Shown piece by piece: positions 2,920-63,817 of a stretch of 64,000 nt of DNA. Within the stretch, counting starts at the first letter, position 1; every line of letters begins with the position of its first letter. A program made the translations under genes and the position numbers. This stretch comes from Rhynchonema sp. JSB1_4 (lineage: Eukaryota > Nematoda > Chromadorea > Monhysterida > Xyalidae): NCBI GenBank assembly GCA_030248065.1, contig JASAMV010000618.1:62001-126000 (forward strand). Reading direction: 5' to 3'. Under the pieces are notes generated by a model that saw only the letters and a program-made list of their open reading frames with translations, made no database searches and was not told where the DNA came from.

Positions 2920-5900
2920 TCATTTGCACTTGATCCCCTCATGCTTGATGGCCTCCCTCGACTCTTTCTCCCTTAAGTCCACGGTAACTTTGGTGAACAG
3001 GGGCGTTTCATCAACTTTGATTAAATCATATTTTAGGGAGCTCAGTCCGTCTTTACGCCAGCGACGTTTAGTTCTGTACATCAGTTTGTATCGACATTGA
3101 TTCACAGCGTTAGATGACTCGTGCGAATGTTTGATCATTTTGTAGCGCGCGATCGCCGCCGGATAACGCGACACTGTGTAGCCATTGAGCGTCACTCTGC
3201 AAAACTATGATACGGTGTGGACGTGAAAAGTGTTGAGCAGCACATGGCAGTGTTGCAACAAAATAAAAAAGCTTTCTTGAAAAAGTGCTTGTTTGTTTAA
3301 AAAATGTCGGCACTTAAACATGAATAACACACAGAATATTTTCGACATTTGTGTTACCCAAAATCATAAAAAACACACAAAATCACTAATTGATGGTCAT
3401 AAGACGGTAATGCCATACCTTTCCGACATATCGTCATCCTCGCCGCCCCAGCCCCAATAGTTATTTGAATACCCGTTGACTTTCTGGAACTGCGTCTTGG
3501 TCAAAGCGGTGATGCCACCGAACAGTGTTGAGTACAACAATCTGCAGATCAAGAAAAAGTTAACACTTGAGAGCTATCAAGTTTTGGTCGTCTAATCCAT
3601 CTGGTCTCATCTTGGATAATGGACAATTCGAGCGTTATTGATACCACTAAGTCAGAGCAGCGTAAACGTTGTTTCTAGAGAGCTGATAACTATACGATAG
3701 CTGAAACTCGTAGCAGCAGAAAGGAGTGTGTAGCAGTGTTATTATTTAGTTCTCATAAATGTGAGCAAGATTTATACTAATAGAGTAGTCTAAAGCTGCA
3801 TATATAGTTTCGGACCCTCTCACGAGACTATATATGTCAGAATGCATCCGGGTCCTCCGGGAAAACCACGAATTATCCTTCACTATCTAGTGCGGACAAA
3901 ACTGATGAAAGCCGAGCGCGTAAGACTCAAACTAAGGCTCAGGCTTTGAACGAAATTTGTCCGAGCAAAATGATAGCGAGAAAGAACTTCTTAAGAAGCC
4001 TCCCCGACAGTCACACTCAACCGACTTGTAATTGAACTTGTCGACGGCGACCGACATGTGTCTCGGCTGTGCATCCGGGCACGAGTACAGATTTCGATCG
4101 TCTTCCGGCAACAAGTCGACATCGTGAAAGATGTAGCATTGCCAATCGTAGAGCTTGTTCGCCTCGATATAGCCTACGTTCATCAATTTGGCACGATTGA
4201 ACGTCTGATTGCCGACCTGGGGATAAAAGTGAAAAGATTTGCGCTTGATGAATGGGACAAAGACGTGATAATCGAACGTATATGCACGATATCAACTTGG
4301 GCGACTGATTTTTTCGATCTCGCTCGGCCGCTGTCAAGGGAGCAAAACTGAATTCACGATAGGTTTCATGACTAAGAACCGTACGGATTTCAATTTGAGC
4401 CACTACAAAACCTGGGTCTGTTTATTCTGGTCTAGAAAAAACTTTTTACGCTGGTCAAAACCAGAACGGCTACGGCTACGAAAATTATTGAACACGTGAA
4501 GGCACGTGGTCAAAGCAGATGCGACTTAATCCCCTACGGTTTACACCAATCTTCGGTTCGCGCTGGTAGGACACCACAATTTTCTATGAATCACAACGCT
4601 TAAAAAACCAAAAACATGAGCTTTAATAAAAAAAGTGGTTCAAAATACAAACCTGCTCAACAATGAAAATGGCATAATCCAGTTGTTGTTTCGTGAGCAG
4701 AGAGTGCAGATTGTGCAGGAAGCCCCTGAGATGTCGTTCGCGATCTCGATAGGGAATGATGATGGCCACCCTGTGATTGGATCGACAATCGGCCGGTTTG
4801 CCGTGACCGCCCCGCTCCAGGTACGGATAGAGACGCTCCAGCTCGGACATTGATGGGTAGTCGAACCAAACTTTGATGCGACCGACTGTCAATGGGAATA
4901 ACGATGAAATGATATGATTGGAAGGCACGGACCACGCCAGCACAAATTCCACATTGGCAATCCCATTGCCTTCCCTCTCAAGGACAAACAAGAGGCTTTT
5001 CGAGTTCTGGTTTGGTTATTCGTGTCTATCATTACAAGATTTGCAAATGATTGAATGGCTACGCTTCAGCAACAACACTATTTTGCGAGGCCCACTCAAT
5101 CCCACCTCCCTCAAATCATGGGCATATAATGCAAAATTACTATAGAAACAACAAAGGGAACCGGACCTAAAACTGGAGGCACCGGCGGGCACTGCTCCAA
5201 CTTGTCGCTCTGACCCGTGAACGGCGCCCCCACCAACGGATCCTGAAAGTCAATAGAAGAATATCACTTAACTAAGAAACGTCGTTTTTTACTCTGCCTT
5301 CTAATTGCATTCGGTCTGAAAATCAACCGAAAGTATGAATTATTAGTCATCGTGCGTTTCATACGAGCGCACACATGCAGTACGTGATCGCTTTCTTTTG
5401 GTAACATATCACGAGCTTTACACCTAGAAATATGCGAAACTCACACACGCATGATGTGACACTAATATTCCAAATCTGTCTTGAGCACAAAGCAATCAAA
5501 CCTCAGTAATAGACTCCGTAGTAGCATTTGAGTCGGCAACAGAACTTGACATAATATCCGTAACTTCATCCTCAGCATTTCCATTCTTTGGCACCGAGTG
5601 TGTGGTGGCATTATCTGATTTGATTGTGTCAGCCGGCGATGACTGAAATAAACAGCAACTAAAGTAACACACTACTATTGATTATGGCACGGTTTCAGTT
5701 CGCAATGTTTGAGAACGCAAAAAAGTCATACCGCTGCCCGCACAATAAAACACCTCAAAACGTTGTTGTGCGCATTATTATGAAATATGAGTGTTCGAAT
5801 GAAACACAGACAGCGCTCATAATTGTCCCGAAATTTATGTAAATCCATCCAATGCCCTCATAATGCAATCGCTGAAAGAACTGAAATCAACAAAAAACTA

Positions 5901-20029: not shown

Positions 20030-20716
20030 CCCCAAAATGGGGTCAGTGAGCGAATAGAGCCCCCCTTCTATTTAGGTTTTTACGGTAATCTGTGGTACGG
20101 TGAAGGTTGGGGTGGGGTTCTATTAATGGGGGGTCAATTAATGGGGGGTTCTATTTTTGATTTCGAGCCATTTACCGTATTGTCGGAAATAGAACCTGGG
20201 GGGTCTATTTTTTCACTGGGGTCATTTTGGGGGGGTTCAATTTATGGGGGGGTCAATTATTGGGGGGGTTATATTTTTCATTTGGCCCCCCGACGAAAAA
20301 AATCATTGTTAATAATGCCCATAAAAATGGCTTGTTTTCGGTATTTTCTAACTTCAACAGCGGCAATTATGCTTAAAAAGCTGTGTTCTGTTGTGCACGC
20401 AAGCTTAAACAACGTTTGACACAACAACACAGCCCTACCATACCACTAATCTGTGGTACGGTGAAGGTTGGGAGTGGGGTTCTATTAATGGGGGGGTCAA
20501 TTAATGGGGGGTTCTATTTTTGATTTCGAGCCATTTAGGGGGGGTTCAATTAATGGGGGGTCAATTAATGGGGGGTTCTATTTCCGACAATACGGTAGGG
20601 GGGGTTCAATTAATGGGGGGTCAATTAATGGGGGGTTCTATTTTTGATTTCGAGCCATTTAGGGGGGTTCAATTAATGGGGGGAGTCAATTAATGGGGGT
20701 TCTATTTCCGACAATA
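20030..20716. repeat. Family H repeat block (TTAATGGGGGGTTCTATTT units)
   Basis: Tandem GGGGGTCAATTAATGGGGGGTTCTATTT-like units lie between TACGGTA-containing ends. Related elements are at about 35290-35375, 39126-39432, 41537-41735 and 43775-44211. C1 is inserted at its right end, so its cggtaaac tail is duplicated at 23673-23680. Confidence 0.65.
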
Positions 20717-20765
20717 CGGTAAACCAGTGTAGTGGCAGGCCCATGTGTGGGAGGTAAGTATGATG

Positions 20766-21550
20766 CAGAGGTCGCAATCGGGCCGGGTTTGGCCGGCCCG
20801 GCCCGGCCCGAGCCCCCAAATCTCCGGCCCGGCCCGGCCCGGCCCGACCCGTACCCCCAAATCTCCGGCCCGGCCCGGCCCGAACCCCCAAATCTCCGGC
20901 CCGGCCCGGCCCGAATTTTTGGCTCAGATTTTAACTTTAACCCAATTTTTGTCATAATTTTTGCGATTTTTGAATCTATTTTTTTGGTTGAAAATTCATT
21001 GTTTTCCATGAAAAAGTCGCCAGATAGACAATACCAATGGTGTGGCTGGGGGGGGGTAGGTAAGGTAGATGACGCGCCATCCTGGTACAGTAGGTAAGTC
21101 GCCGCCCCCCGGCTGGTACAGGTTGCTATTTTTGGCTCAAAATGGTATAAAATCGATATTTTTCACTCCAAATAATCGAAAAATCGCGCGCTGAGCGCGA
21201 AATGAGGGTTTTAGAGTACATTTTCATCTAAATTTAGACATAAAAAAATTTGTTCCCCCCCAAGCTCGGCCGGTACAGTAGGTAGGTTGATTGCAGGCCT
21301 TTCTGGTGGTACAGTAGGTTGACTGCACGCCTGGGTAGCCACACCACTGGACAATACTGATCACTTACTTGCTGAATCCGTCAGAAATTTTAGCATTTTT
21401 GACAAAAAAACCCCTACTTTTTCAGTAAAATAAGTCACTTCAGAAGCTTCGGGCCGGGGTGCCCGGCCCGGCCCGGCCCGAGCCAAAAGCCCAAAATCGC
21501 GGCCCGGCCCGGCCCGGCCCGAGCTCGGGCCGGCCCGATTGCGACCTCTG
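20766..21550. mobile_element. hAT-like element F1 (GGCCCGG-rich) with nested L2
   Basis: Termini CAGAGGTCGCAATCGGGCC and its complement. Perfect duplication gtatgatg at 20758-20765 and 21551-21558. Subterminal arrays of GGCCCGGCCC alternate with CCCAAATCTCC words. L2 (21035-21349) is nested with duplication gacaatac. F2 at 60203-61048 carries the same nested insertion. Confidence 0.92.
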
Positions 21551-21575
21551 GTATGATGCGGGGTTGGGACCGGAA

Positions 21576-22174
21576 TAGGCCTGGGCACAATACCACTTTT
21601 GACACCCAATACCAATACCCAATACCAATACCGGCCCTGTACCAATACCCAATACCCAATACCAATACCAAATTGGTGACCCAATACCAATACCCAATAC
21701 CAATACCGGGTGAGACCCAATACCAATACCAATACCCAATACCAGATCAATACTACTGAAGTGCCTGGTATTGGGTTTGGTATTGGGTTGGTATTGGTAT
21801 TGAGTATTGGGTATTGGGTTGGTATTGGTATTGGGTATTGGGTATTGGTCTTAGTATTGGTTTGGTATTGGGTTTTTGGTCTGGTATTGGGTTGGTATTG
21901 GGTTTGGTATTGGTTTGGTATTGGGTTTTGAGTCAGGTATTGGGTTTGGTATTGGTTTGGTATTGGGTTTTTCTGGATTAGTATTGGGTATTGGTTTTGA
22001 CCCAATACCTGGACAAACCCAATACCAATACCCAATACCAATACCAGGCCATCTTCAATACCAATACCCAATACCCAATACCAGAATTAGACCCAATACC
22101 AATACCAAACACTGGTATTGGTATTGGTATTGGGTGGTATTGGTATTGGGTATTGGGTATTGTGCCCACCCATA
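21576..22174. mobile_element. Fold-back element E1 built of AATACC/GGTATT repeats
   Basis: Both halves are arrays of CCAATACCAATACC and its complement, so the whole 599 bp can fold on itself. Termini TAGGCCTGGGCACAATACC and a near-perfect complement. Perfect 8-bp duplication gaccggaa at 21568-21575 and 22175-22182. The empty site gggaccggaagcg is present in C2 near 40035. A second, right-truncated copy starts at about 41730. Confidence 0.9.
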
Positions 22175-35100: not shown

Positions 35101-35878
35101 TGGAACAAGCACTAGCTAAAATGGCTTTTTGGATTTGGCCCCTCCCTCGACCAAAAGCTGGATTCGCCACTGCAAGCAAGTGAAGACTTAACGCAATAAT
35201 AGAGCATAACACCCACGTAAAACCAGTTCTTTAAAGCGATTATTTTCAGAGTCAGCATTCAGGTGAGTGAAAAACAGAAACACCCTATAATTGACCCCGA
35301 ATATTGGACCCCCTAATTTGACCCCAGTGAAAAAATAGAACCACCGCATTCTATTTCTGACAATACGGTACTGATAAAAAAGAAACCAACTGTGACCAAC
35401 AGAGGTGAGAATCAGGCCGGGTTATTTCGGTCTGGCTCAGCTTAAGGAGGTCTTGGGGTCGGCCGGCCCGACCTGCAACAAGGTCGGCCCGGAGCGCAAT
35501 GAAGCAAGTTTCAGGTGAAAAATGTCTGTCTCTGATGAAATAATCCGAATCACACACATGGATTTGGTAACTATGTCCACCGAATCGCGAGAATTTTTTT
35601 GGCAAATTTGCTCTAAAAATCACGATTTCTTTAATGAAATTCCACGATGTCGTTGGAATGGCCCACCTCGGCCAGGCCCGGCAGTTCGGCTTGACTTCCA
35701 CCTCTGTGACTAACTCAGAATATCCGAGCCATTTTATGAGGTACTCAGTTTTTCCTTTGACGACGCGCTTGTCCAAGATTTCTTCCACTTGATAGGCAGC
35801 GTTTGAGTCGTTGTCATTTCCCACTGGCGTTTTCTTGCTTCGCTTTGTTGTTGACTTACGGGCCGAGGAAGCGGGCAT
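32194..35878 (-). CDS. Chromodomain protein (HP1/CBX-like) with C-terminal C2H2 zinc finger
   Basis: Six exons join in phase to 284 residues: 35715-35878 (ATG 35878), 34679-34856, 34242-34373, 33875-34030, 33485-33608 and 32194-32294 (stop 32194-32196). The chromodomain is split by intron 1: YQVEEILDKRVVKGKTEYLI, KWLGYSE and EDNTWEP, with the aromatic cage residues Tyr, Trp and Trp. A Lys/Ser-rich N-terminus precedes it. Then come a strongly acidic stretch with a KPKKKRGR basic patch, a CQNC pair, and a finger YKCPFCPWSGPEETQFTEHV followed by AKKH. There is no chromoshadow domain, so it is not a classical HP1. The chromodomain probably binds methylated histone H3 lysine. Introns 1 and 5 carry transposons abutting their 5' splice sites. 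Confidence 0.9.
32400..33480. mobile_element. hAT-like element G2 with nested family A element A7, inverted relative to G1
   Basis: Termini CATAGTTTTTTTAGACAC and TGAAAAAAAACCCTG. Perfect duplication ataccggc at 32392-32399 and 33481-33488. A7 lies at 32725-33077 at the same internal site as A5 in G1. It occupies most of intron 5 of the chromodomain gene. Confidence 0.92.
35401..35706. mobile_element. hAT-like element T in chromodomain intron 1
   Basis: Termini (C)AGAGGTGAGAATCAGG and GACTTCCACCTCTG. The flanks tgaccaac (35393-35400) and tgactaac (35707-35714) differ by one transition. The right duplication is exactly the first eight bases of the intron on the minus strand. Related ends occur in family F and at 63818. 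Confidence 0.8.
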
Positions 35879-35894
35879 TTTGGTAAAGACGATA

Positions 35895-35975
35895 CACAGA
35901 GATAGAGTAGTATTGATTTGGTATTGGGTATTGCGATTGGGTCTCACCCGGTATTGGTATATTGGGTATTGTCAG
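35895..35975. repeat. Short family E fragment upstream of the chromodomain start codon
   Basis: GGTATTGGGTATTG words begin about 30 bases upstream of the ATG at 35878, in the presumed 5' UTR or promoter. The frame through it into the gene is an artefact. Confidence 0.6.
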
Positions 35976-43237: not shown

Positions 43238-44877
43238 GAGGTCGCAATCGGGCCAGCCCGGCCCGAACCCCCAAATCTCCGGCCCGGCCCGAATTTTTGG
43301 GTCAGATTTAGATTAGATTAGCCGCCACCCCCCCCCCCCCCAGTACAGTGGCAGAGGTCGCAATCGGGCCGGCCCGAACCCCCAAATCTGCGGCCCGGCC
43401 CGAATTTTTTGGCTCAGATTTAGATTAGATTAGCCGCCTCCCCCCCAGTACAGTAGCAAAGGTCGCAATCGGGCCGGCCCGAACACCAAATCACCGGCCC
43501 GGCCCGAATTTTTTGGTTGAGATTTAGATTAGATTATATTAGCCCCCCCGCCCCCCTCCCCCCCAGTACAGTAGCCGAAAAAATTCGGGCCGGCCCGAAC
43601 CCCCAAATCTCCGGCCCGGCCCGAATTTTTGGCTCAGATTTCGATTAGATCAGATTAGCCCCCCCCGTACAGTAGCAGAGGTCGCAATCGGGCCGACCCG
43701 ACCTCGGGCCGGGGTGGCCCGGCCCGAACCCCCAAATCTCCGGCACGGCCCGAATTTTCGGCTCAGATTTAGATTACCGTAAACCTAAAATACAAGGGGG
43801 GGCTGTATTTTTTCACTGACCCCTTTTAGGGGGGCTGTATTTTTTGGGGGCTCTATTTTTGGGGGGCTGTATTTTTTCGCTGCCCAAAATCTCAAAAAAT
43901 GTTCCCAAAAATGCCCCTCAAATGGAGTTCTGTCAGGGTGTTACTGGTCATTATTGAGTGTTTTTAGGTGCAGATCTTCCATAAAAGGCTTTACGTCATC
44001 ATATACTCAACCACAAACGTTGTACATAATGTGTCGTATACAAGAACTTGACTTTACGACCCCCAAGCGGGGAATTCCAAGTTGGGGGGGGGGCTGTATT
44101 TTTGGGGTGGGGGGGCTCTATTTTTTCACTGACCCCGTTTAGGGGGGGGCTGTATTTTTGGGGGTGCTCTATTTGGGGGGGGCTCTATTTTAGGGAATAC
44201 GGTATATTAGATAAGCCCCCGCCCCCCTCCCCCCTAGAGGTCCAGAGGTCGCAATCGGGCCGGCCCGACCTCGGGCCGGGCCGCGATTTTGGGCTTTTGG
44301 CTCGGGCCGGAGATTTGGAGGTTCGGGCCGGGCCGGGCCGGAGATTTGGGAGTTCGGGTCGGGCCGGAGATTTGGGGGGCTCGGGCCGGGCCGGGCCGGC
44401 CAAACCGGCCCGGCTCGAACCCCCAAATTTCCGGCCCGGCCCGAATTTTTGGCTCAGATTCAAATTAGATTAGCCCCCCCCCCTCCCCCGCAGTACAGTA
44501 GCAGAGGTCGCAATCGGGCCGGCCCGAACCCCCAAATCTCCGGCCCGGCCCGAATTTTTTGGTTGAGATTTAGATTACCGCACGAGAATCTTAACCAAAA
44601 AATTCGGGCCGGGCCGGAGATTTGGGGTTCGAGCCGGCCCGATTTTTTTCGGCTACTGTCCTGGGGGGAGGGGGGGCGGGGGGGGGCTAATATAATCTAA
44701 TCTAAATCTCAACCAAAAAATACGGGCCGGGCCGGAGATTTGGGGTTCGAGCCGGCCCGAATTTTTTCGGCTACTGTACTGGGGGGGGCGGCTAATCTAA
44801 TCTAAATCTGACCCAAAAATTCGGGCCGGGCCGGAGATTTGGGAGTTCGGGCCTGGCCGGGCCGATTGCGACCTCTT
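43238..44877. repeat. Array of family F units with a family H element (43775-44211) in the centre
   Basis: Left half: about five direct units of CAGAGGTCGCAATCGGGCC...GAATTTTTGGCTCAG with AGATTAGATTAGCC spacers. Right half: similar units, mostly inverted. The central H element ends TACCGTA/TACGGTA, flanked by atttagat and tattagat. Confidence 0.7.
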
Positions 44878-46083
44878 ATTCAAATGCCAAACAATAACCA
44901 ACCGTTCCATTCACTCCATTTTTTCGAGTTGTTTCGTCCCTGTTGTCGACCACCATTCCAGTCGTGCGATTGCCCTCCATTGCCTTTGTCGTCCCACTTT
45001 TGTTCAGTTTGTTCCGACGTTTCTGTTCTGTTTGGTGTCCGTCAGACCAACGCCTTGCTTTTTTTGGGCATGATCGACAATTATTATTATTATTCGCGTG
45101 TTAATCAATCAAGATTCAGAATTGTTGACAGCGTGAATCTGAAAACAGCATTTTATCAGCCTTTACGCTGCGCCCTCGATCAGTTGAAAACAGTGTAGTT
45201 CCTGTGGGGGACGGGGGGGGGGACGTCTGTTCCCCCTCCATGCTAAATGGGCTTTTACTCAATTCAACGAGGTTTCAACTTGCAATCAACTCGCTGCTGT
45301 TTCTCCCAAAACAAGGCCAACTAAAGAAAAAGAAACCACGTGTAAAGAAACACACACGCGCGCGCGCCAACAACAGCCAATCAGCAGCCGACACCGCCCC
45401 CTTTGCGCGGGAAATGTCGGCCATTTTCTCACGCAACTTTGTGGCGAGTTTTCTCGCGATAGAAGCGATGTTTCAAAAATCTGGCTCTACCTAATGATGT
45501 ACCACAACGAACCGAGTCGATTGATATATAACTTGCCTTACTTCGTTAAGTTTCCTAGGAGGAGATAACTAAAAACTAAAATGACGCATTTTTTGGGAAC
45601 GCGGACATCACTCTTTCTCGGGTGTCTGGAAAACCACTTTCTGCTGCACCGATCGGGCTGATTTTTTCAGCGTTTTGTGTCGGCGGGTATACGACATTAT
45701 CGCAATAATAAAATTGGCAAAAGCCCAACACACGCGCTCACGCCAGCACCCCCGATTTTAACACTACAGGTATAGCAAAATTTCCGATAATCTGACCTGC
45801 TGATGTTTCATTCCGCGTTGCGAATTTTTTTTTTCCCACACAAACACTATTGAATACGTAAGCTATCTTGTGAATATGTCGCCAATAAGCTAATGCCACG
45901 ATGTCTTCTTTGTTTTGCTGTTGCCTAATTCCGGTGCTATACTCACGTATAGACCCTGATTTACATTGAAACGCACAATTGCAGCTTACTCATTCTTCCC
46001 CTGATGAGGAATCCAATAAAAGTACAAAATGATAAAAAAGCTAAAATACATAAAGAACCAACTGATAAGGTACCGTGCCCAAC

Positions 46084-46277
46084 CTCCATTCGTACTGATG
46101 TCCTAGTTTGATGTGTTTCTCAAGGTCGTCAATCGGGAACAATCCCACACAAAATTCGCATTCTTCGTAAATCAGCTCCTGGTCTGAGTCGACACGAGAG
46201 ACGATGCGCTCGTGCCTCGTGCCAGAACCGAAGCTGCTCAAATTGCGATTTCGCATTTTTTTATCTGAAATGCTCAT
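46084..46277 (-). pseudogene. Orphan first exon paralogous to the 46923-58770 gene
   Basis: An ATG at 46277 opens MSISDKKMRNRNLSS. The exon then has YEECEFCVGLFPIDDLEKHI and KLGHQYEWR, nearly identical to the zinc-finger exon at 58616-58770. It ends at a GT donor at the same residue and phase. A possible short second exon (GRMSKL) follows near 46000. The inverted duplication begins at 45958, and no further exons are seen. Confidence 0.7.
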
Positions 46278-46922: not shown

Positions 46923-49900
46923 TCATTTCTTTCTGGCCGACTGTACTTCAGTTCCGTCCAACATGCGATTTTCGAGCAATGCCCTGGCACGTTCACTGAA
47001 TTCCACACGTTCAAAATCACGCGGTTGACCGTACCAGCGGTAAAATACGAACACCTGAATCGAGAAAATGTTTGGGGTGAGAAATTGATCGATTGTTGAT
47101 CGAATGTGTTTATTGGTTGGTCAGCAAAACTTCATGAAACAACATTGGCCTTGGGAAGGTCGCCTACGATATAATGAGCACCAGTGCAAGTGAAACGGTG
47201 TTTCAATAAGCGTCTGGCGAGTTCTGATACAAGTCAAGCCTTTCATCGTCTTTCACAAGCCAATATTTTTGTTATTTGTTTCGAGACGGAATAAGCCGAC
47301 GTGCCAATAGGCAATAGCAAACATTCGAAGGTCAACCTTCTATGAAAGATCGGCGCACGATATTTTACGTCGAGAGCACAGGTGGGGGTTTCACATTATA
47401 TGCTCAGGACACATGTTGAGAGGCAACAATAAAAAAATTCAATGTTGACCACCCACCATCACCCACGGTTTCACGGAGCACCATTTGTTCGGATCTGACT
47501 CATCCGAAGCAATCAAGCCGGGCAGATCGCTGATAACGTAGAATTTGTGACGGAACAGATCCGGGCAGGACATGTTGCGCTCGGTGATCTGCTGGATCTG
47601 GACACGATAGAATGCTTTGTTGATAATGATTTGAAACAAATAGTTGAGGTATCCAGTATACTTATTTGGCATTATCATCACACTACAACGGTGTTACACT
47701 TAGGCTAACGGGTCAGGCATCTGATTCGCAATCTCAATACCCACCACGCAAAAAGTCCTATGAGAAAGGCAGATCTCGCCAAGTTAAGTTCGATTTTATT
47801 CTGAGCCACGATTTCCGTATTCCTCCTACACCCTTCCCCTCCCGCAACTGACCACGTGCGTTGGCAACGGCGTTCGCATTTCAGCAGCGGCGTCAATCGC
47901 CTCCTTGCACACCGCCTTCATGTGGCCAGAAGCTCGACGTTGTTTCAAACATTCGATGCGATCGCCCGGCGTGACACGGTAGAAGAACTTGTCTTTGTGC
48001 AGACGGACGTTGTGCCTGCGATATTGGTGTACCATACATACATTATTAGAATTACATTTATTCGCCGAGGTAAAAATTACACCATAATGTTTTCTGGCAT
48101 TAATATACCTTTTTAGAACGTATGTATATTACATTTTATTGATGACAAAAACAGGACGCGAATTACTACCGAAAGACAGCCAGGACGAAAATCATTCTTG
48201 GTTTAAGTATCAGCACGCCAAGGTATAGTAAATTTCTAATTTCGTTGCCTCATACACTTTTACAGACGCAGGGAAACTGCGGTTCGAAGTCGAGGCAGGC
48301 AACAAGCTCAACACACAGTCAACAAGCCACGCAGCTGGCTCGTGTGTTTTTCGAATGTTTCAGTCACACAAGCTGTGTGTGTCAGCTGCGTGGCTTGTTG
48401 ACTGTGTGTTGAGCTTGTTGCCTGCTCAGACTTCGAACGGGAGTTTCCCTGCGTCTGACGAATGCATGAGGCAACGAAATTAGAAACTGCCTAGAGCGTA
48501 CAAAAACAAAAACCTCTCCTCCTCACCACACTCCTCCATCATCTTTCAACAAATGCCTGTCCGTCCAATAGAAACGTTGTGTTGGGTCATCGCTGTGTAT
48601 GTGGAACAGGAATCCTGCAAAAAAGACAACAGCTGTAACACGCAAATTTAAAAAGAGAAAATTAATGAACGGGAACCTTTCGATTCATCCGTCGGCACTG
48701 TGTTTGGTATGACGCTCGACACTGGCACTTTGCCCTCCAGCGCTTGTAGCATCTAGAAATTCATCGACCTAATAGGGACATAAACAACAAATAACATCAT
48801 TGTTTGGCCAATAGTACTGTCGTCGAATCAAGTCGTTCAACGTTGTCGTTAAATCAAGCAATAATAAATGAGGCCCAAATGAGGGTGATATTTTCGAAAC
48901 GGTGTAAAGGTGAGTTGGGTGTAAAGGTCGGTGTAAGCTCAATCGAAAGCTTGGTCGGTGTCAACTCGGTGTAAACATGAAACATTGCCTGCTGTTAACG
49001 TGGAATGTTTCATGTTTACACCGAGCTGACACCGACCGAGCTTTCGACCGAGCTTACACCGACCTTTACACAGTTTCGAAAATGCCACCCTGAGAGCGAG
49101 AAATAATACATGTGATATGACGACGACTTGATTTGACAACAGCCCATTCTTTCATGGTTGCTTTCGTTTTGGTAAAGGCACGACATTTTTTGTCCATCCA
49201 GTCGAAAACAATGAAACTTCGTTGTTCCACTGTGAAAAAAGCTGCTTGTCAGGGTTTCAATCGTCAACCTAGTGATTCCACAGTAAAAACATCGAAATCG
49301 AAACACGAAGCCCAACCTGATAAAGGGCAATGCCGGGATTGATCTCCTTCATACACAACCACGTCAAGCCGACTATCGTAGGGTCGGGTCGCAGTCTGCA
49401 ATACTGTGATGTTTCACACAAGAACGACCTTGATGTACAAGGGTTACGCAAATGCTGTTGCTTTAACTGCTGCGAGCTGGTAATAAAAACAAACAACCAA
49501 AAAAACACCATAAAATCTATGAGACTCAATATCTAGCACCTGACTGAAGTCTGGAACTCAGCACGCATTGCTTCCTCGTTGTGCAGTTGCAACATTCTGG
49601 CATCGGGTAGAAACGGACCGTTCATTGAGTTGTTGTTGACGTTGGTGTCACGCGCCAGCAGCCTGCAATTTGCATCGTAACTGCAGCACCAAATTGTAAG
49701 AACTTATCATATGGGTTAGCCCAGAACCTTGGGCTCGAGTCTGATTTTCGTGTGGATACTCCTGTTCTCGAGTAATGGCGGCCGACACCACTCGAGCGTA
49801 GTGCAACGATCGCAAGCGAAAGACATTCAACGCTGGGACGTCGCCGTAGTTTACAGCATAAACAGAACCAAATCAACCAAAAACAACACACACACAACAA

Positions 49901-52900
49901 CAATTATGCCCCGCCCCAACCTGTCCATTGGTTCACCAACAGTGCTCAGCCCGGTCATTTTCGTCGGGTCAACCATCGTGAACAAGTCCTCGTCCTCCAG
50001 ACGTGCGTCATAGCCGTACTCGAATGCTTGACTGCTGCTGCAACGGTAGTATTTGGTCAATTTTATGGAGCTTTTGACTTTCCTCACGATCACACTGAAA
50101 ACGGTGATGTTCTCGATTACTCAAAGGATGTCCGCTAAACTTACTCTAATCGAAACATTATTGTTATGACCTATAGAACTACAAAATACTGTAAATTCAA
50201 CTCAATATTCACCGTCAGGGCTACCAAATTCAATACAGCCATTTTCGATCACAATCAATCAATGCTTCCCACTTACCTTTCCGCATTGGAGTCTTCCCCC
50301 TCCACCGGCGAGTCAGCCAAATGTCGAATACCCCCGCCTTCCAGTCTCTTGGCCCGAATCATTGCGTAATCAGGCACACGACGTCGAATCATGTGATTGA
50401 TCTGGCAAAGGGTTCCTGAGGCATATTGTACTGTTGAAATGGGTTTAACGTTTTGTGTGTGAACAACGCTCGATTCAAATTTTTTATCTCCGCAACCGAT
50501 CTTTGATTGTTTTGTTTACTGTTTCGCTTATTCGTACGGGCAAAGCAATCCAACATGGAATCAACGGCAAGCGAGTAGCTAATATTATGCAACAACTGAA
50601 ATACTTAGGGCTCCGATTAACCCGTGCATTTTGAGACGACGAGCATAGTTTGCGTGACCCAAGAAGCCCTCAAGTCATTCACCGACAAACAATCACAACA
50701 ACCAAACCAACCACATCTCTCAGCTTCTCCTTGGGCAGGTCTCCAATGTCCAGCCTCTGTCGAAGCGCAGCATCAGTGGTCAAATCAGCCAACAGCTCGG
50801 CGCGATCCATACCTTCTTTCAGCCGTTCAATGACGTACGACTGTGTGAATCATACAAGTAACATCTCTCGAAATATGTAAACGAATAAGTGCACTCAAAG
50901 GCACCTACCTTCAGAACCTCCGATGTTTTCGTATAGTGCGGCAGATTGTGCGGCTTCTTCTTGCCTTTTCCCGGTATGTATTCTCTGCAACGTAAGTCAC
51001 CCATAAACTTACTGCATGTTTCGCACGAAAACAGTGGTCGATAATAAATTCAGTGACCAGATCGAATCTGCTCACACTTTTTTGATAGAAGGTGTCACTA
51101 GGTTCGACCCCCCGAAAAGCTGTCTTTTGAGCCGGTTGAAACTGTTGGCCTCAACAAACCTAAAAACATCCGCAATTCAAAAGTCACGTGACGATGGCTG
51201 ATCCGATCACCAAGTTTCATTCCACTCTGTGTGTGAAGCGGCAAAATGAATCCGTTCCCAAATACAACAATAATCAACGTCCAACGCCCACCAACCGCAC
51301 AGCACCCGGTACTCTTGCCCCAATGCCCATCCTGGTGTACACACGTGGTTTGCCAATCCATTTATAGAACACCATCGCCATGTCGAATTGAATCGGGAAT
51401 GACAGACGATCATTGCACCGTGACGTTGACGCTTTACGACCGCGCATTGATGCCGACTAAAGTATTGACATCAAAATCAGCGGTAGGGTTCTGTTCCCAT
51501 TTTCATATTTCCATTGCTAAAATGGGTCAACAAACATCTTAACATCGCTGTACAACCTACTTGTGCCGATTACGCCGATACGTACAAACATATCAACAGA
51601 ATAGCGACATAAACGTGAGCACTTGCCATCTGATCCCAGTATGAGGTGCGCGTTGTGAAGTACATTCGAAGTTTCATCATGTCCGGACAAGCACGTGGAA
51701 AATGCGCTTTCACTTGGATCTGAAATCGTACATCAATAAGGTTGAAGTGCCGTAAGTGTGATCGTGAGATTCACAGTGCCACAGTGTCTAGCATTTTTTT
51801 CTTTTTTTAGGCTAATTGATCGGTTTTCGTTGGCGCAGGAACGGTAATGAATCTCACGGAAAGGCCAGCAGTTCTCACGTGAAACATTAAGCGTCGCAAG
51901 ACAAGTTTCAACAAAAGATTAGGCAATAATATGGAAAAAATGAAAACGACCCAACCACCAACCAAATGCGTGTATTGTTGACTGGTCACATCAGTGTCTT
52001 GGCCATAAATGTTCCGCAATCTACAAACCCATGAACCGTTGGGCGTTTGTTCGTAACACATCAGCCAGCCTTTGATCAGGAAGACTTGGCCTTGAAAATC
52101 GATAACAAATTAGTGATTTCTAGTTTTCTTATCAGCTTTTACAGCAACATGATCAAGACTCGGCCTTCAATCAAGGGATATTCGCTATACAGAGCAGCAA
52201 GAAGTGCAGGAGCAGCAGAATGCGACCAAGCATTCCGTCAACATCACACAAAGAGTTGCATTATGATCATCAAAAATGTCACCAATATTTTCCAATAAAT
52301 GTCTCCAATTCCAAACCTCCATCATCCGAGTTGACCTCCGCCTCCCAGTGCACTTTGCGATCGATGTCACGTCGCGCCGCATTCAAATCGAAAATGAATG
52401 CCTTTGAACGATCGCTTGGCACTTGCTTGGGAATCTGGAAGTGGGAAAAGAAATCACTATGTATTTGGAAAATAATTGTTGTCGTTGATGGTGTCAAATC
52501 AATATCGCTACGTATATAAGTACGGTGCTTATTCGCTACGTATGAACCATGACAATGTTTCACATGTTTTGTTTGTAAAAACACAAATTATTGGCTGACC
52601 AATCAATCACAAGTCGTTCGTGAAGTCAAATCAAACTCATCAACAGACGCAATTATGAACAGCTTCTCCAATTATGTACCTCATTAGTGCATAAGTACGG
52701 TCTGGTCATGGCAGCATGCATGTAGTGAATGGCAATGTCTGGATTTACGTTGTCCAGCAACAGCCACGTGACGTTGTTCGTATCAGCGTGCACTTCTTCG
52801 GGACCGAGGATTCTGCCAGTTGTTGTAGTTGGAATTTATGACAGAATTTACGTGTACGTGCTTTGTGTAATTACCTATCGATAAACGCTACCATCCACAC

Positions 52901-55900
52901 AGTTCAAAACCGAGCACGTGAATGGTGTTTGGCGCAGCCGAATCAGAACACAGATACGTCCGCAACTGCGGTGATCATCAAGAATCTTGTAAGAACCAAC
53001 TTATCGGGCGGTGGCGCACGTTTCCACTGCATGATAGCGTCATAGTAGACTTCCTGCGATGCGAACGGTGCGTTGAGTTGTGCAGCACACGTGACATCAT
53101 CCGACCCGCGACCGAACAGATGGAAACCGTACTTGACCTTGTTTTTCTTCGACATTTTCTGGAACACATCCGAACTCGGGTCGGCGATCAATTTGGCGCG
53201 GACCAACAGACCGAAGATCGACTGGCCTGAAAGAGAAACATCTTATATTTTCACAGACTTTTATATGCTTCGATGAACCTCGATAACAGACCAGAAATAT
53301 GGATAAGATGTTTCGAAAACAATTAATAATGACACTTCAAATCGACCGCATCAATGTCACCAGGTCCCTAGGATGGAAAAGAAGATTGCCTTGACCACGT
53401 AGCATTCCCAGAATGTTTCGCGTGACTCATGCAATTCAGTGACAGGGAACCCCAATTAACCAACTTCTGTTTCTCTCTAGCTCATCATATTTCACGGCTG
53501 TGAAAAATTCACTTGGTGGCTTCTTTTTCATTGGCTGCCATTCCAACCTGAAATTCAAAAAATGTGCCATGAAAAATGGCGAAAACTTTTTCCGACAGGG
53601 AAGTTTTAAAAAATGAGCAAAGCAAACTAACCCCTGATCCTTCAGCAATCTGAGTTCTCTTCTCCGATCTCTTTTCTTGGCCGCTTCAGTGTGCGCATCA
53701 TTCGTTTTCTTCTGCAGAGTCTTCTTCTTCTCAACTTCCGTCACCACAATGCTGTTGACCTGGGTGTTTGAAGAATTTTCTCACTTTTATCTTTCTTCGT
53801 TGCAGAAGCAGCCTAAATAACAAAACAACCAAAACCAACGTAGGCGCGCAGTCTCTCTTCAGTACTATCTTGCAAAGAATACTTTTCCCGGAGTGCCTGA
53901 TTTGTGTTCAGTTCTTCGAGAATTTGGTCCACGGTCTTACCTGAAGAACTGATCGTTACAGTAGCTAAAATGGGTTAGAATACAAATACAGTAGAATCTT
54001 GGTTATCACCCTCTCTCAGTTGTTTCCGCACAAACGTTTCGCAAACGTCATCTGAATCAGCAGTACATGACTTGCTAAAAGAAAAATATAGAACCAATTT
54101 AAACAAAGAGAGGCAAAGAAATACGTAAGATCACATTAGAACGATCCTGGAACAAAGCACAAGCCAATGTGCACCTGCCTGGCCAAGTACGCGGCTTCGT
54201 AATTGATCAGAGCGGACGCACCAGCTGTCTTCCTGATCTTGTTCAGAGCACGAGGTTCACCAACCCACAGCCAGAAAATCATGGCCACTTCGAAGTCAAC
54301 CGCCAAATGTTGCAGAAAACGACGGCTTTTATTTCGTTTGACCTCTTCGCGGTGTTTCTTCATCTGAATAACATATAAATACAATACATGATTGTTGTGA
54401 AAGTTGTGCCACGCGTTGCCATGTAAACAGCAAAATATACTTGCAACGTTTCGCCAGCTTTAAGCTGGCTTCTTCAGGCATAGAAGCCCGCTTAAAGCTG
54501 GCAAAACGTTGCAGATAAATTGCTGTTTATGTGGTAACGCGTGGCACAATTTTACAACAATCAGGTATTGATATCAAACTGATCACAACAAAAAAGAGAA
54601 CATTGCGCACTTCAAACATTTATAATAACGTTCATCTGATTTGTCGGAATATTCCACACGTAGGGTGACACTTTCGAAACGGTGTAAGGGTCAGTGGAAA
54701 GCTCGGTGTGAGAAAGTTCGGCATAAGGTTAAAACAATGCTCGCTGAGCAAGCAGCAGACGCGCGTTTCTCAACAAAAGGTCAACTTTGACAGTCTGCTG
54801 TGCAAGCGTAAATCGTTGGTTTGCAATATTGTTTGTTTGGGCTAGTTGCATAGATTTTTTAAATGATATGATGAACATCGTAAGCTTTTATGGAGCCGTT
54901 TTGGTTTCGTGCTGCGGTCAGTGAGCGACGTCAATTTTTTGGCACCGCCGTCAACGAATGCACAATTTCTCAATAGCCTTACGGCGAAACGTCAGGTGGC
55001 TTAGAAACGTTCTTTCAAACGTTCGTGCAATCAGCTTAAATGAACCAGATTGCAAACAAACAATTTACGCTTGCACAGCAGGCCGTCAAAGCTGACCTTT
55101 CGTCCAGAAACGCGCGTCTGCTGCTTGGTCAGCGTTCAATGTTTCAAGCTTAAGACGCCCCCTTAAACTTTCTCACACCGAGCTTGCCACCGACCTTTAC
55201 ACCCAACTAACCTTCCGTTTTGAAAATGCAACCCATAATCCCTGATTAATCAAGGTGGTAAAGCTATTGCAAACCTCAGCCCAGTAATTTTCGCGTGTTG
55301 TCAAATAGAACGACCATTTCAGTAGATCCGGACAGTCGCGCACAAGATACAGACGGTTCCAGAACTGAAGCCATCAAATGTTTCACCAACAACGTGAGAT
55401 GGTGCTTGCTTGTTTGTCATTCCAATGCCCAAAGAAAATCGGTTGCACAAAACAAGCACAGTTTTCAATCAACAAACCACATGCGTATAATCCATTTTCT
55501 TATTATCCTCAAAGGCGAATTGCAATCTGTACCAAAAATGCTTCAATGAGCCATTGCGTAGGATTTTTACAGCATTACCGTGAGAACGCAGCTTTTGCTT
55601 GGTGCCTGAAAAATGGCAAAACGAACATAAAGTACATGAAAATAACACAAGCATGAAAATTTCAAGTTCCACGGACGAAACCACGTTACTTTTACGAACC
55701 CACGCTATCGGCCATCACCGTGCGTTCCCAGTTCCAGTTCACTTCGTTGTGCGTTCGTCGCGCTTCGGCCAGATCGAACATGAAACCCTTAGATTCGTCA
55801 TCCGGTGGCATGGTGGGAATCTGAAATTCTGTTACTATTGTTTGTTCATAGTTGCAACTGCGTGTATCATTTTACGATCATTGCGCAATTCTGTTCTTTA

Positions 55901-58770
55901 GGTTGACCGATGCGTACAAAGTCAAAATTGGTGTTCGCCAACGTCAGACTTCCCCGCACGGATCGGGTAGATCTTACCTGGTCTTCCGACTTCTTGAACA
56001 TGTTTTGATGACTATTCTTATCAAAAGGCTGACACGACTATTACAAGTCGCACAAAATGTGATAACTTTCGAGAAATTACTGCCTGATGTGGTAACAAGC
56101 TCAAAACAAACCCCCTCTCTCGTCAGCTACCTGTGTGCTTATCAGATACTTTTTCTCCTTTGTGTTCTGCAAGTAGGCCATCAGATAATCACTAGCGATC
56201 TTGTAATTCATGTGCTTCAAAGGCAACCACACAACACCGGGTTCACTCGACCGCTGCACCTCGTTTGGTTGCAGCAATCTGAAGTTTAGACATAGATTGA
56301 GCAAAGATATTTTCATTAGGTGCTTTGTTTGTCTCAGTACGTCAGTCTAGACGACATTGTCGGTTTCAAGTAACGTGCATCGTTACGCATACACAAACAT
56401 GTATGGTATATCAAGCTCGATAATTAAATCGGAACTGTCTTGGTCACATGACCTCCGTGATGTTAGAAATATTATAAAAGAAATCTACAGGTGCCCCCCC
56501 CCACATTTTCACCAGCGTAGAGGTTGTTCATATTCAGTACGGAACAACTTTTACGCTGGTCAAAATTGTGACCTTCGTAAATTCGAAATACCATGAAAAA
56601 AGTCGCCTGCCCCGGATCCAATCCACAAATCTCATCTAGTTTCTGATCATTTGTTGTGAAAATCTACCAATCAGGCACCTTCTGACATGTGCCAGCCTGT
56701 GCTGTTCCATTTTGGCCGCGTATTCGTGTGGCGATACAAACTCGTCCTCCCGGCCGATCAACTGAATGATTCGCGTGCGCACATTTGACCCGTCCATCCA
56801 GAATCGACTTTGACGATCCAACAGCTCATTCTCCTCGTACGTGTAATTCACTACAAGTCAGGCACGACGTTCTTTATGTTGGGTGGTTGATGCCATTCTA
56901 GAAGGCCCAAGCTCAACTGAAACAGCAGTGTCAATCCAAAATTTGCCAGAAAAACGAGTCGATCAATAGCGAAACATCCTACTTGCTTTTGTGATGAATA
57001 TTCCTAGGGATATTCTGGTCCCCGATTTAGGGCTGCGATACCCGTATCTATTCACCATAAAGAGGGCAGTTCACGTCACACAAACCCCAAACCTTGAAGG
57101 TTTTTTTGTAACAAACGATGATGTTTTCTCAATGTGAGAATAAACTTAAAACCGCCAAATGGGCCCCTGACTGACCGTTGTCCCCTTTGGGCAGCTTGTC
57201 AAATCGCCTCGCATTATTCAAACTGGCGTATTGTCTCCACGGCGTTGTGCGTGATGACACGCGACGGCTGCCTGTCGTTCGTTTCGCTCGTGTTTCACCA
57301 TCGTCCGACCAATCTCCGTCCGATTCGTTTGAGACACCTATTTTGGCGCATTCAATTTGATTGTAGTTTGCGGCGCTTTGTGCATTAAAGATTTACTGAA
57401 GGCTCTAACACTCACAAGGGTCATCTGGCCGAGCCATATCTAATCCGACCAAGTTTGATAACCAGGCAAACTCCGTCAACGTACCGGCATCCTCATAGTC
57501 ACTATCACCATCATTGTTGTCAATATCACTGCCCTGGTCCTGGTCTCGAACGCGTTTCAGTCGAATTACCGGTTCCCGGTCTGCTGCCGAATTGGCCGAC
57601 GTCACCGATGGCGTTGGTCGTTGTCTGAGTCGAGCTGAACTGCGCCGACTTCGATTTGATTCAGGATCGAGACCGGAGCCCTCGCCGGATGGCAATAGCA
57701 CACTGACGTCAGGTTTGGTCTCGATTTCGAACGGTATTTCCGAGCTTTCTGGTGATACCTGAACAGTAACTGTTTTGTTTCGATCAGTTTTCCAGAGAAA
57801 ATAGCACGAAGCTTCAAGAAGATACTTGACCATTTGCTTCGATTTTCGTTTCCGACTGCGTTGAGCGGCAACATTGGCCAACGGTTCGTTATCTGAGTCA
57901 AAATCTCCTCCTTCACCAACTTCACCAACATCACCACCAGCGTCGGAATCTGACGCGAAACCACTTGCCTGCAGCTCATCATCTGGAAAAAATCGAAAGC
58001 AGGTCTGTTCCAAAGCTTGTTCTTGACCATAAAAGTCCGCAAGAAGTCTAACCGTGATGATCAGGATCGCATTTTTCAGCAATAGTTCTTCTTGCCGTCT
58101 GGCTCTGTCTGTTGAGTCTGGGTGGCTCGGTGGGTGACACACAACGCGAGTCAAGCACGTCAACGCGAATGCCCATTGCCGATGTCGACGCTTCTTGACC
58201 ATTGTTGGTCTGAGGAACGTTTTGTGCGATAAACGAGAACGCTAATGCAGGCTAAGTGCAGCCTGAACCCGGACCAACATTCCTTTCCAGTTTGTTCGTA
58301 ATATCACTGCCTTCCATCCACGACAATCATTTCTCCTCAAAGACTAACAACCAGCAAAACCAGGCCAACCTGACTGCCACCAAGCGGACGAACTTTGGCG
58401 AATCGAAACGGATCAAAATCATCAGCTTCAAAATAGACCTTGCTGTCCAGCTGTGACACAGCAAAGATTCGCCGCACCTTGCTCAATTTACCGCCGAGCG
58501 TGCTGAAAAGTGAAAACCAGAGTGCCTTTCGAAAACTCGGTCTTGCTGACCCAAACCCACCTCTGGTAATAAACAACGGAACAATTTTTTTAATAAAGCC
58601 TGATAAAGAACCAACTTCCACTCGTACGCATGTCCAAGTTTGATGTGTTTTTCAAGGTCATCCAAGCCGAACAATCCATTGCAGAATTCACACTCTTCGT
58701 AAATGTGCTCTGAATCGTCCACTTTTTGCCAAACACCTTTGGCCGGGGAGCCAAACTCGATACAAGGCAT
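46923..58770 (-). CDS. Unrecognised 1504-residue protein: zinc finger plus a thrice-repeated module
   Basis: Thirty-six exons join in phase from ATG 58770 to stop 46923-46925: 58616-58770, 58370-58502, 58053-58209, 57831-57982, 57416-57758, 57176-57337, 56679-56850, 56131-56278, 55978-56028, 55704-55820, 55579-55605, 55275-55364, 54175-54363, 54010-54070, 53840-53964, 53632-53759, 53451-53547, 53361-53367, 53028-53226, 52680-52812, 52317-52434, 51963-52090, 51615-51719, 51296-51456, 51109-51159, 50909-50984, 50712-50840, 50277-50401, 49921-50094, 49540-49662, 49317-49395, 48677-48752, 48527-48614, 47853-48015, 47457-47597, 46923-47054. Order: CX2C...HX4H finger (YEECEFCNGLFGLDDLEKHI), acidic and basic linkers, then three module copies. 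Each module has a W-L-x-L...N-x-x-I-A motif, IP...(D/S)(E/R)SK(G/A)F, CPD(L/M) and V-F-Y-x-W-x-G-x-P-R. No membrane segment or known catalytic motif. Nuclear role is inference. Least certain: the 7-nt exon and the 54070 and 52090 acceptors. Confidence 0.7.
48226..48492. mobile_element. Fold-back element in an intron of the 1504-residue gene
   Basis: Arms of about 115 bp, e.g. TTTCTAATTTCGTTGCCTCA and GAGGCAACGAAATTAGAAAC, and GGCTTGTTGACTGTGTGTTG with its complement. Arms are about 90 percent identical by eye. Confidence 0.8.
48887..49094. mobile_element. Fold-back element, GGTGTAAAGGTCGGTGTAAG type
   Basis: Ends GGGTGATATTTTCGAAAC and TTTCGAAAATGCCACCC. The centre ATGAAACATT...AATGTTTCAT also pairs. 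TGA on both sides is a possible 3-bp duplication. The longer relative at 54662-55232 shares the termini. Confidence 0.7.
54382..54567. mobile_element. Fold-back element with GCGTGGCACAA arms
   Basis: Left GATTGTTGTGAAAGTTGTGC pairs with right GCACAATTTTACAACAATC. CCAGCTTTAAGCTGGC forms an inner hairpin. It lies in the intron between exons 55275-55364 and 54175-54363. Confidence 0.75.
54662..55232. mobile_element. Longer relative of the 48.9-kb fold-back element
   Basis: Termini GGGTGACACTTTCGAAACGG and the complement of GGGTTGCATTTTCAAAACGG at the right end. Inner arms include GCAGCAGACGCGCGTTTCT and its complement. Same intron as the preceding element. Confidence 0.7.
56488..56570. repeat. 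Short inverted-repeat element (ACCAGCGTA...TTTTACGCTGGTCAAAA)
   Basis: CATTTTCACCAGCGTA and TTTTACGCTGGTCAAAATTG face each other across about 45 bases. Relatives are at 4438 and 63300. Confidence 0.55.
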
Positions 58771-59904: not shown

Positions 59905-61070
59905 AGGTACCTTGCAACCACCCAGGAGGGTACCTTGCAACCATAAATTTATGGTTTTTATATGCAAAAATGGGTGTTTTTCGACCTCAAAACCCCAAAA
60001 ACCTCCATATAATAGCTATTTTGGGCAAATTTTCGGCCAAAATGCAAAAAAGTACCATTTTTCGGCCAATTTTGCAGAAAAAAAGCATGCAAAAAACACC
60101 CTTTTTTCGGACCCCAGGGGTACCTTGCAACCTTCTAGAGGCTGGGTAGGGGGTACCTTGCAACCATCTGGATCCATCCCCCCCCCAAGGGTACCTTGCA
60201 ACCAGAGGTCGCAATCGGGCCGGGTTTGGCCGGCCCGGCCCGGCCCGAGCCCCCAAATCTCCGGCCCGGCCCGGCCCGGCCCGACCCGTACCCCCAAATC
60301 TCCGGCCCGGCCCGGCCCGAACCCCCAAATCTCCGGCCCGGCCCGGCCCGGCCCGGCCCGAATTTTTGGCTCAGATTTTAACCCAATTTTTGTCAAAATT
60401 TTTGCGATTTTTGAATCAATGTTTTTGTTGAAATTTCATTGTTTTCCATGAAAAAGTCGCCAGATAGACAATACCAATGGGCAATGGTGTTGGTGTGGCT
60501 GGGGGGTCCCCCGCCCCCCTAGGTACAGTAGGTAGATGACGCGCCATCCTGGTACAGTAGGTAGATCGCCGCCCCCCGGCTGGTACAGTAGGTTGCTATT
60601 GTTGGCTCAAAATGGTATAAAATCCATATTTTTCATTCCAAATAATCGAAAAATTTTGAGGGTTTTAGAGTACATTTTCATCTAAACTTGGACATAAAAA
60701 ATTTTGTTCCCCCCTAGCTCGGCCGGTCGGTACAGTAGGTAGGTTGATTTCAGGCCTTTCTGGTGGTACAGTAGGTTGATTGCACGCCTGGGTAGCCACA
60801 CGACTGGACAATACTGATCACTTACTTGCTGAATCCGTCCGAAATTTTAGTATCTTGGACAAAAAACACCCTACTTTTTCAGTAAAATAAGTCACTTCAG
60901 AAGCTTCGGGCCGGGGTGCCCGGCCCGGCCCGGCCCGACCCTCCAAATCTCCGGCCCGGCCCGGCCCGGCCCGAGCCAAAAGCCCAAAATCGCGGCCCGG
61001 CCCGGCCCGGCCCGGCCCGAGGTCGGGCCGGCCCGATTGCGACCTCTGCTTGCAACCATCTGCATGAATT
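59905..61070. repeat. GGTACCTTGCAACC element hosting F2
   Basis: Five GGTACCTTGCAACC words occur between 59920 and 60202, and one partial word after F2 at 61049. The full extent is unclear. Confidence 0.5.
60203..61048. mobile_element. hAT-like element F2 with nested L3 (60475-60806)
   Basis: Termini CAGAGGTCGCAATCGGGCC and its complement. Perfect duplication cttgcaac at 60195-60202 and 61049-61056. L3 carries its own duplication gacaatac and occupies the same internal site as L2 in F1. Confidence 0.93.
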
Positions 61071-61770
61071 TCACGTTTTCTTTTGTTGGATACAACTGTT
61101 TTTAGTTTTATTGAGATTGATGTCCATACGTTCTTAGCTCACCTTACCTACATATCACGGGTTACCATAACTCACCGGTGGCTACCGTATGGAAACTGAC
61201 AATTTAGTGGTTACCATGAGATGGGAACCATATTGCATACTATAATCAACCTTTTATCAGTCATCAGTTCAGAACCACGAAACAGTGAAGTATGACAAAG
61301 AAGAAAATGAAACCAATTAATTACCACACCGTTGAATGTATGAATACAGTACATCCGTTGCCGGAATAGGTGCACACCAAGACATAAAAGTGGCATTACC
61401 ATTTCTATTAGACCGTCTATGTATCACCAATCAAGATATGCGAAACACTGAATAAATTGTAACAACTAAAGTTATGGCGGCAAAGAATTAGCTGGAATTA
61501 ACCCGTGATTATTACGTGCGGTTAAGGTAACGAGTATAACTACTCCCAAAGTTGGACAAAGGTAAGTTCACCACGGCATCAATGCCCTGGAGACAAGTTT
61601 TGAGCAAGATCGCGTCATGAGACAATTGTACCGTTCCCTTTATCTTGCCGTAGTCGTAATCGTAAATCGGCACCTTCAATGTCCATACAATCAGTGTTAT
61701 AGATTAAGGCAGCCTGAGCGTGAGCCCTGGACCCAGCGTAACCCTGAAGGCGAAGTGTGCGTGATGTGCA
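61070..61770. other. Intergenic stretch without recognisable gene
   Basis: AT-rich, with short unrelated frames only. GGTTACCATAACTCACCGGT-type words near 61160-61230 may be repeat remnants. Confidence 0.4.
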
Positions 61771-63244: not shown

Positions 63245-63425
63245 ACAATTTTACAACACAGGGAATTTTTCTTTGGTCCACAGTTTGAGATAGAGTTGCT
63301 CCACTAACTTAGACCAGCGTAAAAGATGTTCATTAGCGGTAGAGGAATAACTTTTACGCTGGTCAAAATTAGTGGAGCAACTCTATCTCAAACTGTGGCC
63401 CAAAGAAAAATTCCCTGTGTTATAA
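63245..63425. mobile_element. Fold-back MITE with near-perfect 75-bp arms
   Basis: AACACAGGGAATTTTTCTTT and the following CCACAGTTTGAGATAGAGTT pair almost perfectly with the right arm. The inner loop carries the ACCAGCGTAAAA/TTTTACGCTGGTCAAAA pair of the short family. Confidence 0.85.
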
Positions 63426-63817
63426 ACATGTCGTCGGTATCAGTAAAAATAAGACCAACCCCCAAAACCACTTTTTCGAGAAAAAAGCGTTTGAAGTTGG
63501 CCTGACCGCATTTCCAACACGGTTTGGTTCGGTAGGCTGATGTTTGGCATGGCTACGTAAGGGAGCTTGCTGATCATCATAGAAACAAAAGTAGACTTTG
63601 AAACATCATATCCAAGCAAAAACAAAGCTATTTGTCGGTTGGTTTTAGTTCACAAAAAAATAAATATAGACCAAGCCCCTTGGCGGAGCAGTTGAAAACC
63701 GAAAAATAGTCCAACCCCCATTTTCTCTGCCATTTATTTTTCGCCTGCTTGAAAATGATTCAATACGGGGTTCATGAAAACGTCTTAAATGCAGCATTAT
63801 CATTCAAAATGCTTGTT

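Follow-up and report, generated by a model that had tools for sequence, protein, structure and literature searches.

Lineage-specific expansions of genes headed by zinc fingers are described for the KRAB-ZNF, ZAD-ZNF and FiNZ-ZNF families (PMC10547256, PMC7655104). Here we analyse a stretch of 64,000 nucleotides, called the window below, from the nematode Rhynchonema sp. JSB1_4 (contig JASAMV010000618.1, positions 62,001 to 126,000). It is part of the contig that we call C375, in a genome of 204 Mb and 5747 contigs. On its minus strand lies a gene that an earlier note, made from the letters of the window, had treated as a single odd protein. We will show that it is instead one member of a large tandem family, and we weigh what the proteins of this family may do.

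The modelled gene comprises 32 exons and runs from the ATG at 58770 to the stop at 46923, the same limits as were given earlier. Spliced alignment, with GT-AG borders only and a hand-made protein model as the guide, yielded 27 exons between 56851 and 46926, in addition to a 1-base artefact at 51226; five more exons upstream are phase-consistent and extend the model to the ATG. The exon joins are predicted from the genomic sequence, and the junction from 51313 to 50982 is putative. In the predicted protein, a single zinc finger (ZnF) comes first, then an RRxFAVT-type motif, next a linker that is acidic and includes a basic cluster, and finally three homologous modules of about 230 residues. All twelve motifs quoted in the earlier note were located on the minus strand in the order claimed there, and an intron interrupts the third IP motif, in line with what the note had assumed. 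The features are the following:

58616-58770, minus strand: exon 1, ATG and zinc finger C-x2-C-x11-H-x4-H (YEECEFCNGLFGLDDLEKHIKLGHAYEW)
58370-58502, minus strand: exon 2, RRIFAVSQLDSKVYF motif, in related genes located downstream of the ZnFs
57831-57968, minus strand: exon 3, acidic SD-rich stretch and basic cluster RSRKRKSK
57416-57758, minus strand: exon 4, linker with RRSSARLRQ and DSDYED
57176-57337, minus strand: exon 5, linker with SNESDGDWSDD
56679-56850, minus strand: module 1, front exon
56131-56278, minus strand: module 1, W-L motif exon
55700-55820, minus strand: module 1, IP motif exon
55478-55605, minus strand: module 1, middle block, ending in YTHV
55275-55364, minus strand: module 1, CPD motif exon
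54191-54363, minus strand: module 1, last motif exon (WVGEPR)
53840-53940, minus strand: tail motif behind module 1 (ILEELNTNQALREKY...)
53001-53226, minus strand: module 2, front exon (LNAPFASQEVYY)
52680-52812, minus strand: module 2, W-L motif exon
52317-52434, minus strand: module 2, IP motif exon
51963-52090, minus strand: module 2, middle block, ending in YTHL
51615-51719, minus strand: module 2, CPD motif exon
51313-51456, minus strand: module 2, last motif exon (WIGKPR), with putative 3' junction
50715-50840, minus strand: tail motif behind module 2 (ELLADLTTDAALRQRL...)
49921-50094, minus strand: module 3, front exon with YDARLEDEDLF
49540-49662, minus strand: module 3, second front exon (NGPFLPD)
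49317-49395, minus strand: module 3, W-L motif exon
48527-48752, minus strand: module 3, IP motif in two exons (48752-48677 and 48614-48527)
47853-48015, minus strand: module 3, middle block, ending in PTHV
47457-47597, minus strand: module 3, CPD motif exon
46923-47054, minus strand: module 3, last motif exon (WYGQPR) and stop codon
46080-46247, minus strand: a second ZnF exon, an orphan some 0.7 kb beyond the stop codon of the gene

Further along from the orphan ZnF at 46080-46247, no RRxFAVT motif or module was found within the window, and this exon may be either a truncated neighbour or the start of a gene with its body elsewhere. The stretches 48226-48493, 48919-49071, 54400-54553 and 54681-55203 contain seven pairs of inverted repeats, whose arms are 31-145 nt long; all of them lie within introns of the gene and look like foldback or MITE-type insertions. 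Elsewhere in the window, GC-rich repeats with RAGPARPGP-type open frames on both strands (20700-21800, 44000-44700 and 60000-61100) are probably a repeat family. On the minus strand, we take the exons at 3935-5015 to resemble a beta-1,4-galactosyltransferase, and the open frame at 35354-35971 to contain a chromodomain-like stretch, perhaps a retrotransposon relic.

The claim that the protein combines a zinc finger with three copies of a module of unrecognised type turned out to be right. A profile built from 13 modules outside the window gives 304, 436 and 424 for copies 1, 2 and 3, compared to maxima of 52.0, 52.9 and 49.4 in 30 first-order Markov resamplings of each, a control that is not fully independent as the 13 rows were themselves picked by likeness to the window. 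The same profile on the plus strand gives 44, 50 and 42. In plain tblastn within the window, copies 1 and 2 match each other in the IP (E 8e-6), CPD (E 6e-6) and last motifs (E 4e-4), and single exons of copy 3 match the other copies weakly (E 0.01 to 1). The window copies also align with modules from several other contigs; single window exons compared by tblastn with about 198 kb of other contigs reach E 4.6e-19, the value for the module 3 CPD exon on C2491. Absent from the earlier list were the RRxFAVT exon behind the ZnF, the tail motif behind each of the first two copies (E 0.002 by tblastn), and a YDxxLEDEEL motif that precedes copy 3 and several paralog copies.

Intron phases, derived by hand from the exon lengths of the aligner, are 2,0,1,0,0 at the five intra-module introns of both module 1 and module 2, and 2,0,2,0,0 in module 3, which has one additional phase-1 intron inside the IP motif. 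Several homologous exons had been said to start at the same place and in the same phase, and four of the five introns indeed agree in all three modules, and all five between modules 1 and 2. These common phases, together with a tree of 23 modules, support the suggested exon-block triplication. In the tree, window module 1 joins the modules in first position in the C2491 genes (support 100/99), module 2 those in second position on C2491 and C4455 (98/98), and module 3 those in third position on C2491 (100/99). The copies group by position across genes, so the triplication is older than the split between the window gene and the C2491 genes. The C527 gene fits the tree less well, with its modules 2 and 3 joining at 80/92 and 91/90 and its first module forming a long branch placed elsewhere. 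On C5202 (e.g. 63256-63477, minus strand), the W-L and IP motifs match as one unbroken stretch, meaning that several copies lack the intron by which these motifs are separated in the window gene. The gene, its modules, the family and the order of the triplication are all read from the DNA letters.

That the modules can be matched to no family, as had been stated, held in every sequence-based search (Pfam, NCBIfam, PDB sequences and a large protein set). Pfam gave no family for nine open frames, nor for 10 and 13 modules, where the only matches were weak one-member ones (best E 0.057 and 0.029, respectively). In NCBIfam no family was found for the modules (best E 0.066), and PDB searched by sequence returned none at first and three rows in a second search (best E 0.077). 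In a set of 5.8 billion proteins, the module alignment found nothing at E <= 1e-3 among 3327 candidates, and for the 1122-residue three-module protein none of the 7992 candidates with the most words in common reached E <= 1, in a search that depends on shared 5-residue words and may miss distant relatives. The set includes nr and UniRef entries, and the proteins of the source organism itself are evidently absent from it. With one module as the query, the viral contigs gave 23 pattern matches and no relatives, and a literature search found no description of such a family or such domains among the titles and abstract beginnings listed. The COX1 of the organism is readable throughout with the invertebrate mitochondrial code, which marks the source as an animal, and its nearest relative among the best 120 proteins listed is 78% identical. 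The named proteins among them have 64-69% identity and come mostly from arthropods, with the nematode Heterakis at 66%. A search for SL1 RNA gave no match, neither in the genome nor in the controls. The lineage is thus poorly sampled, and the modules may look like orphans partly for lack of sampling.

The most conserved positions of the module are the W-L strand, PxDxSKGFxFDL, TH, CPD and W-x-G-x-PR. Since H and CPD belong to the small number of columns that do not vary across ten modules, the module could be thought of as an enzyme in which His, Cys and Asp are catalytic. We regard this as most improbable, since the set is broken in some copies (WPD on C2491 and C4455, CRD on C5202, CPN on C527), a catalytic unit repeated in one chain is unusual, and Pfam gives no enzyme family match. 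The pI is above 8 in 14 of 16 modules, the other two being acidic, and the aromatic content is 10-14%. Such a basic, aromatic-rich composition is compatible with nucleic-acid binding, although it is no proof of it.

Turning to the genome, the match counts are inflated by likely duplicate contigs and lowered since only the best candidates were scored. Of 90 candidates for the ZnF exon, 87 match at E <= 0.1; they are spread over 28 contigs, with 12 on C5202. For the last exon of the module, 51 of 56 candidates match, on 17 contigs, and the ZnF is also present on 13 of these. For the W-L/IP exons, 83 of 84 candidates match, which is not a count of modules, as a module with separate exons may be matched twice and window module 3 was missed. 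Equal-scoring ZnF matches occur on the contig pairs C1909/C862, C4690/C5707, C2699/C4817, C3705/C4887 and C1861/C1876, which suggests uncollapsed haplotypes or duplicated contigs. One genome holds many tandem copies, as would be expected of a lineage-expanded family. On C2491, the next ZnF follows about 0.4-0.7 kb past the end of the previous gene, just as the orphan ZnF does behind the window gene. Counted as W-L exons between successive ZnFs, there are two modules per gene on C5202, three on C527 and four in the second C2491 gene; the subfamily with this module has two to four copies per gene, and the window gene three.

Outside the window, dN/dS is 0.23-0.49 in six paralog pairs, namely those with at least 60 codons and more than 55% amino-acid identity among 528 pairs from 33 models, some of them chimeric and the window gene left out. 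These six pairs are under purifying selection. The many copies, the rapid divergence and the lack of any relatives found would also suit a mobile-element or selfish (toxin-antidote-like) family in place of host regulators. This scenario is very unlikely in our estimation: the genes are intron-rich and stand in head-to-tail arrays, the pairs measured are under purifying selection, and Pfam finds no transposase-type match in the modules.

The pattern C-x2-C-x11-H-x4-H is found on the minus strand at window positions 58695 and 46163. Two Cys and two His stand at finger spacing, as in a C2H2-type finger, with zinc binding being putative. Under curated Pfam cut-offs, no zinc finger was found in six sequences (five ZnFs and one RRxFAVT exon), the best match being zf-C2HC_2 (PF13913) with 14.7 bits against a cut-off of 27 (E 0.026). 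The window ZnF shares with this family the ligand pattern C-x2-C ... H-x4-H, but it carries a signature of its own, ...HIKLGHxYEW. The RRxFAVT pattern occurs at 13 places in the approximately 276 kb scanned, always downstream of a same-strand ZnF, in 12 cases within about 0.52 kb and in one, on C527, at 2.6 kb; for C844 and for one case on C1194, the ZnF was taken from the tblastn comparison. The pattern is missing near six of 17 ZnF pattern hits: three of these are on C5202, one is on C1194, one on C921, and one is the second ZnF of the window. Its consensus used as a query gives eight matches genome-wide, indicating that the motif is divergent or absent in many members. Readable gene starts have one ZnF at the front, and an RRxFAVT-type motif often comes next.

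This head is found on other bodies as well. The W-L/IP query has no match on the ZnF-rich contigs C3398, C3705, C2699, C4817, C1861 and C2034, so the head occurs in arrays without this module, and on C921 and C3398 it precedes other domains. These comprise an RYYR-CCHC-like piece (E 0.0018, 18.6 of 27 bits) and FLYWCH/AFT-like pieces (E 0.19 and 0.11, below the Pfam cut-offs), matches that rest partly on pieces joined by eye. PF23674 has eight matches in the genome, the five best on C921, all below the cut-off. C921 also holds the remains of one module-3-like gene, and one C3398 open frame has a sub-threshold match to the FCH domain (E 2e-4).

The sub-threshold matches of these head-sharing sister genes to RYYR-CCHC (PF23674), FLYWCH (PF04500) and AFT (PF08731) speak for another option, namely that the window module is a strongly diverged, zinc-less domain of the WRKY-GCM1/FLYWCH type, perhaps from a Mutator-like transposon, which would imply DNA binding and a known ancestry. 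The middle block, with a G..W that is hairpin-like in look and TH at its end, would also fit. We nevertheless find this option quite improbable. The hhalign probabilities are 0.04% and 0.36% (with small alignments of 3 and 2 rows), and the FLYWCH/WRKY-GCM1 identity of the middle block is thus not supported by profile comparison. The ligand set C..C..H..H/C is absent; of the possible ligands, the TH histidine and the CPD cysteine alone are kept, and the window module differs from the sister domains in having neither a zinc ligand set nor profile likeness to them. A MULE transposase was likewise rejected: the seven PF10551 matches genome-wide (E <= 0.1), like the two FLYWCH matches, are on none of the listed family contigs. 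Those only two FLYWCH matches (C2915:44931-45785 and C5047:59531-60385) each stand beside an above-cut-off MULE match, and the two loci look like copies of a single Mutator-like transposon.

A different function altogether would follow if the module were a protein-interaction adaptor, as in the MATH, BTB and F-box expansions, with a ZnF that may bind ubiquitin and a family that serves as an adaptor or immune repertoire. In favour of this are the tandem expansion of the family within its lineage and the lack of any recognised DNA-binding domain. A single ZnF at each gene start also offers little for binding DNA at specific sequences, and the finger pattern C-x2-C-x11-H-x4-H may resemble that of UBZ fingers. 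However, Pfam gives no match to any such domain, and the modules are mostly basic and accompanied by a basic cluster, which makes the adaptor function unlikely.

The explanation that we prefer, and to which we assign slightly less than an even chance, is a lineage-expanded tandem family of nuclear, probably nucleic-acid-binding regulators whose modules bind side by side. We infer the nuclear location, the binding and the targets of the proteins as follows. The basic cluster and the acidic linker suggest that the proteins would act in the nucleus, with the linker presumably carrying the nuclear signal, a location that we assume from such motifs. The ZnF and RRxFAVT part would constitute a common recruiting or dimerising head, and the mostly basic, aromatic-rich modules would bind nucleic acid next to each other, each contributing a share of the specificity. 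Duplication in tandem, followed by divergence, could then make many targets addressable, for example the animal's own mobile elements. The searches of Pfam, NCBIfam and PDB sequences gave nothing above chance that would place the module among DNA-binding domains. It is possible, although on balance less likely than not, that the module is an undescribed nucleic-acid-binding or other chromatin-reading domain that together with the head founded a repertoire for genome defence or regulation in an animal lineage that is poorly sampled, an independent counterpart of the KRAB-ZNFs with large modules in place of finger arrays.

If the module binds DNA, it would be a new domain for the animal repertoire and its family one more case of regulators whose numbers exploded in a lineage through tandem duplication, and the link between such explosions and mobile-element load would become testable. 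Even if it does not, so large a family for which no relative was found in a set that includes nr and UniRef entries means that much of some animal genomes is still unnamed.

Compared to the KRAB-, ZAD- and FiNZ-ZNFs, the window family is likewise a lineage-specific expansion, also arranged in tandem arrays and with a putative role as regulators. It differs in having one ZnF at each gene start and no finger array; the modelled gene has a single ZnF, and no zinc-finger match was found in the modules. No Pfam match to a KRAB or ZAD domain was found in the N-terminal open frames and exons, and the repeated part of the gene is an unrelated module of 230 residues. The family thus appears to resemble the ZAD-, KRAB- and FiNZ-ZNFs in kind without being a member of any of them.
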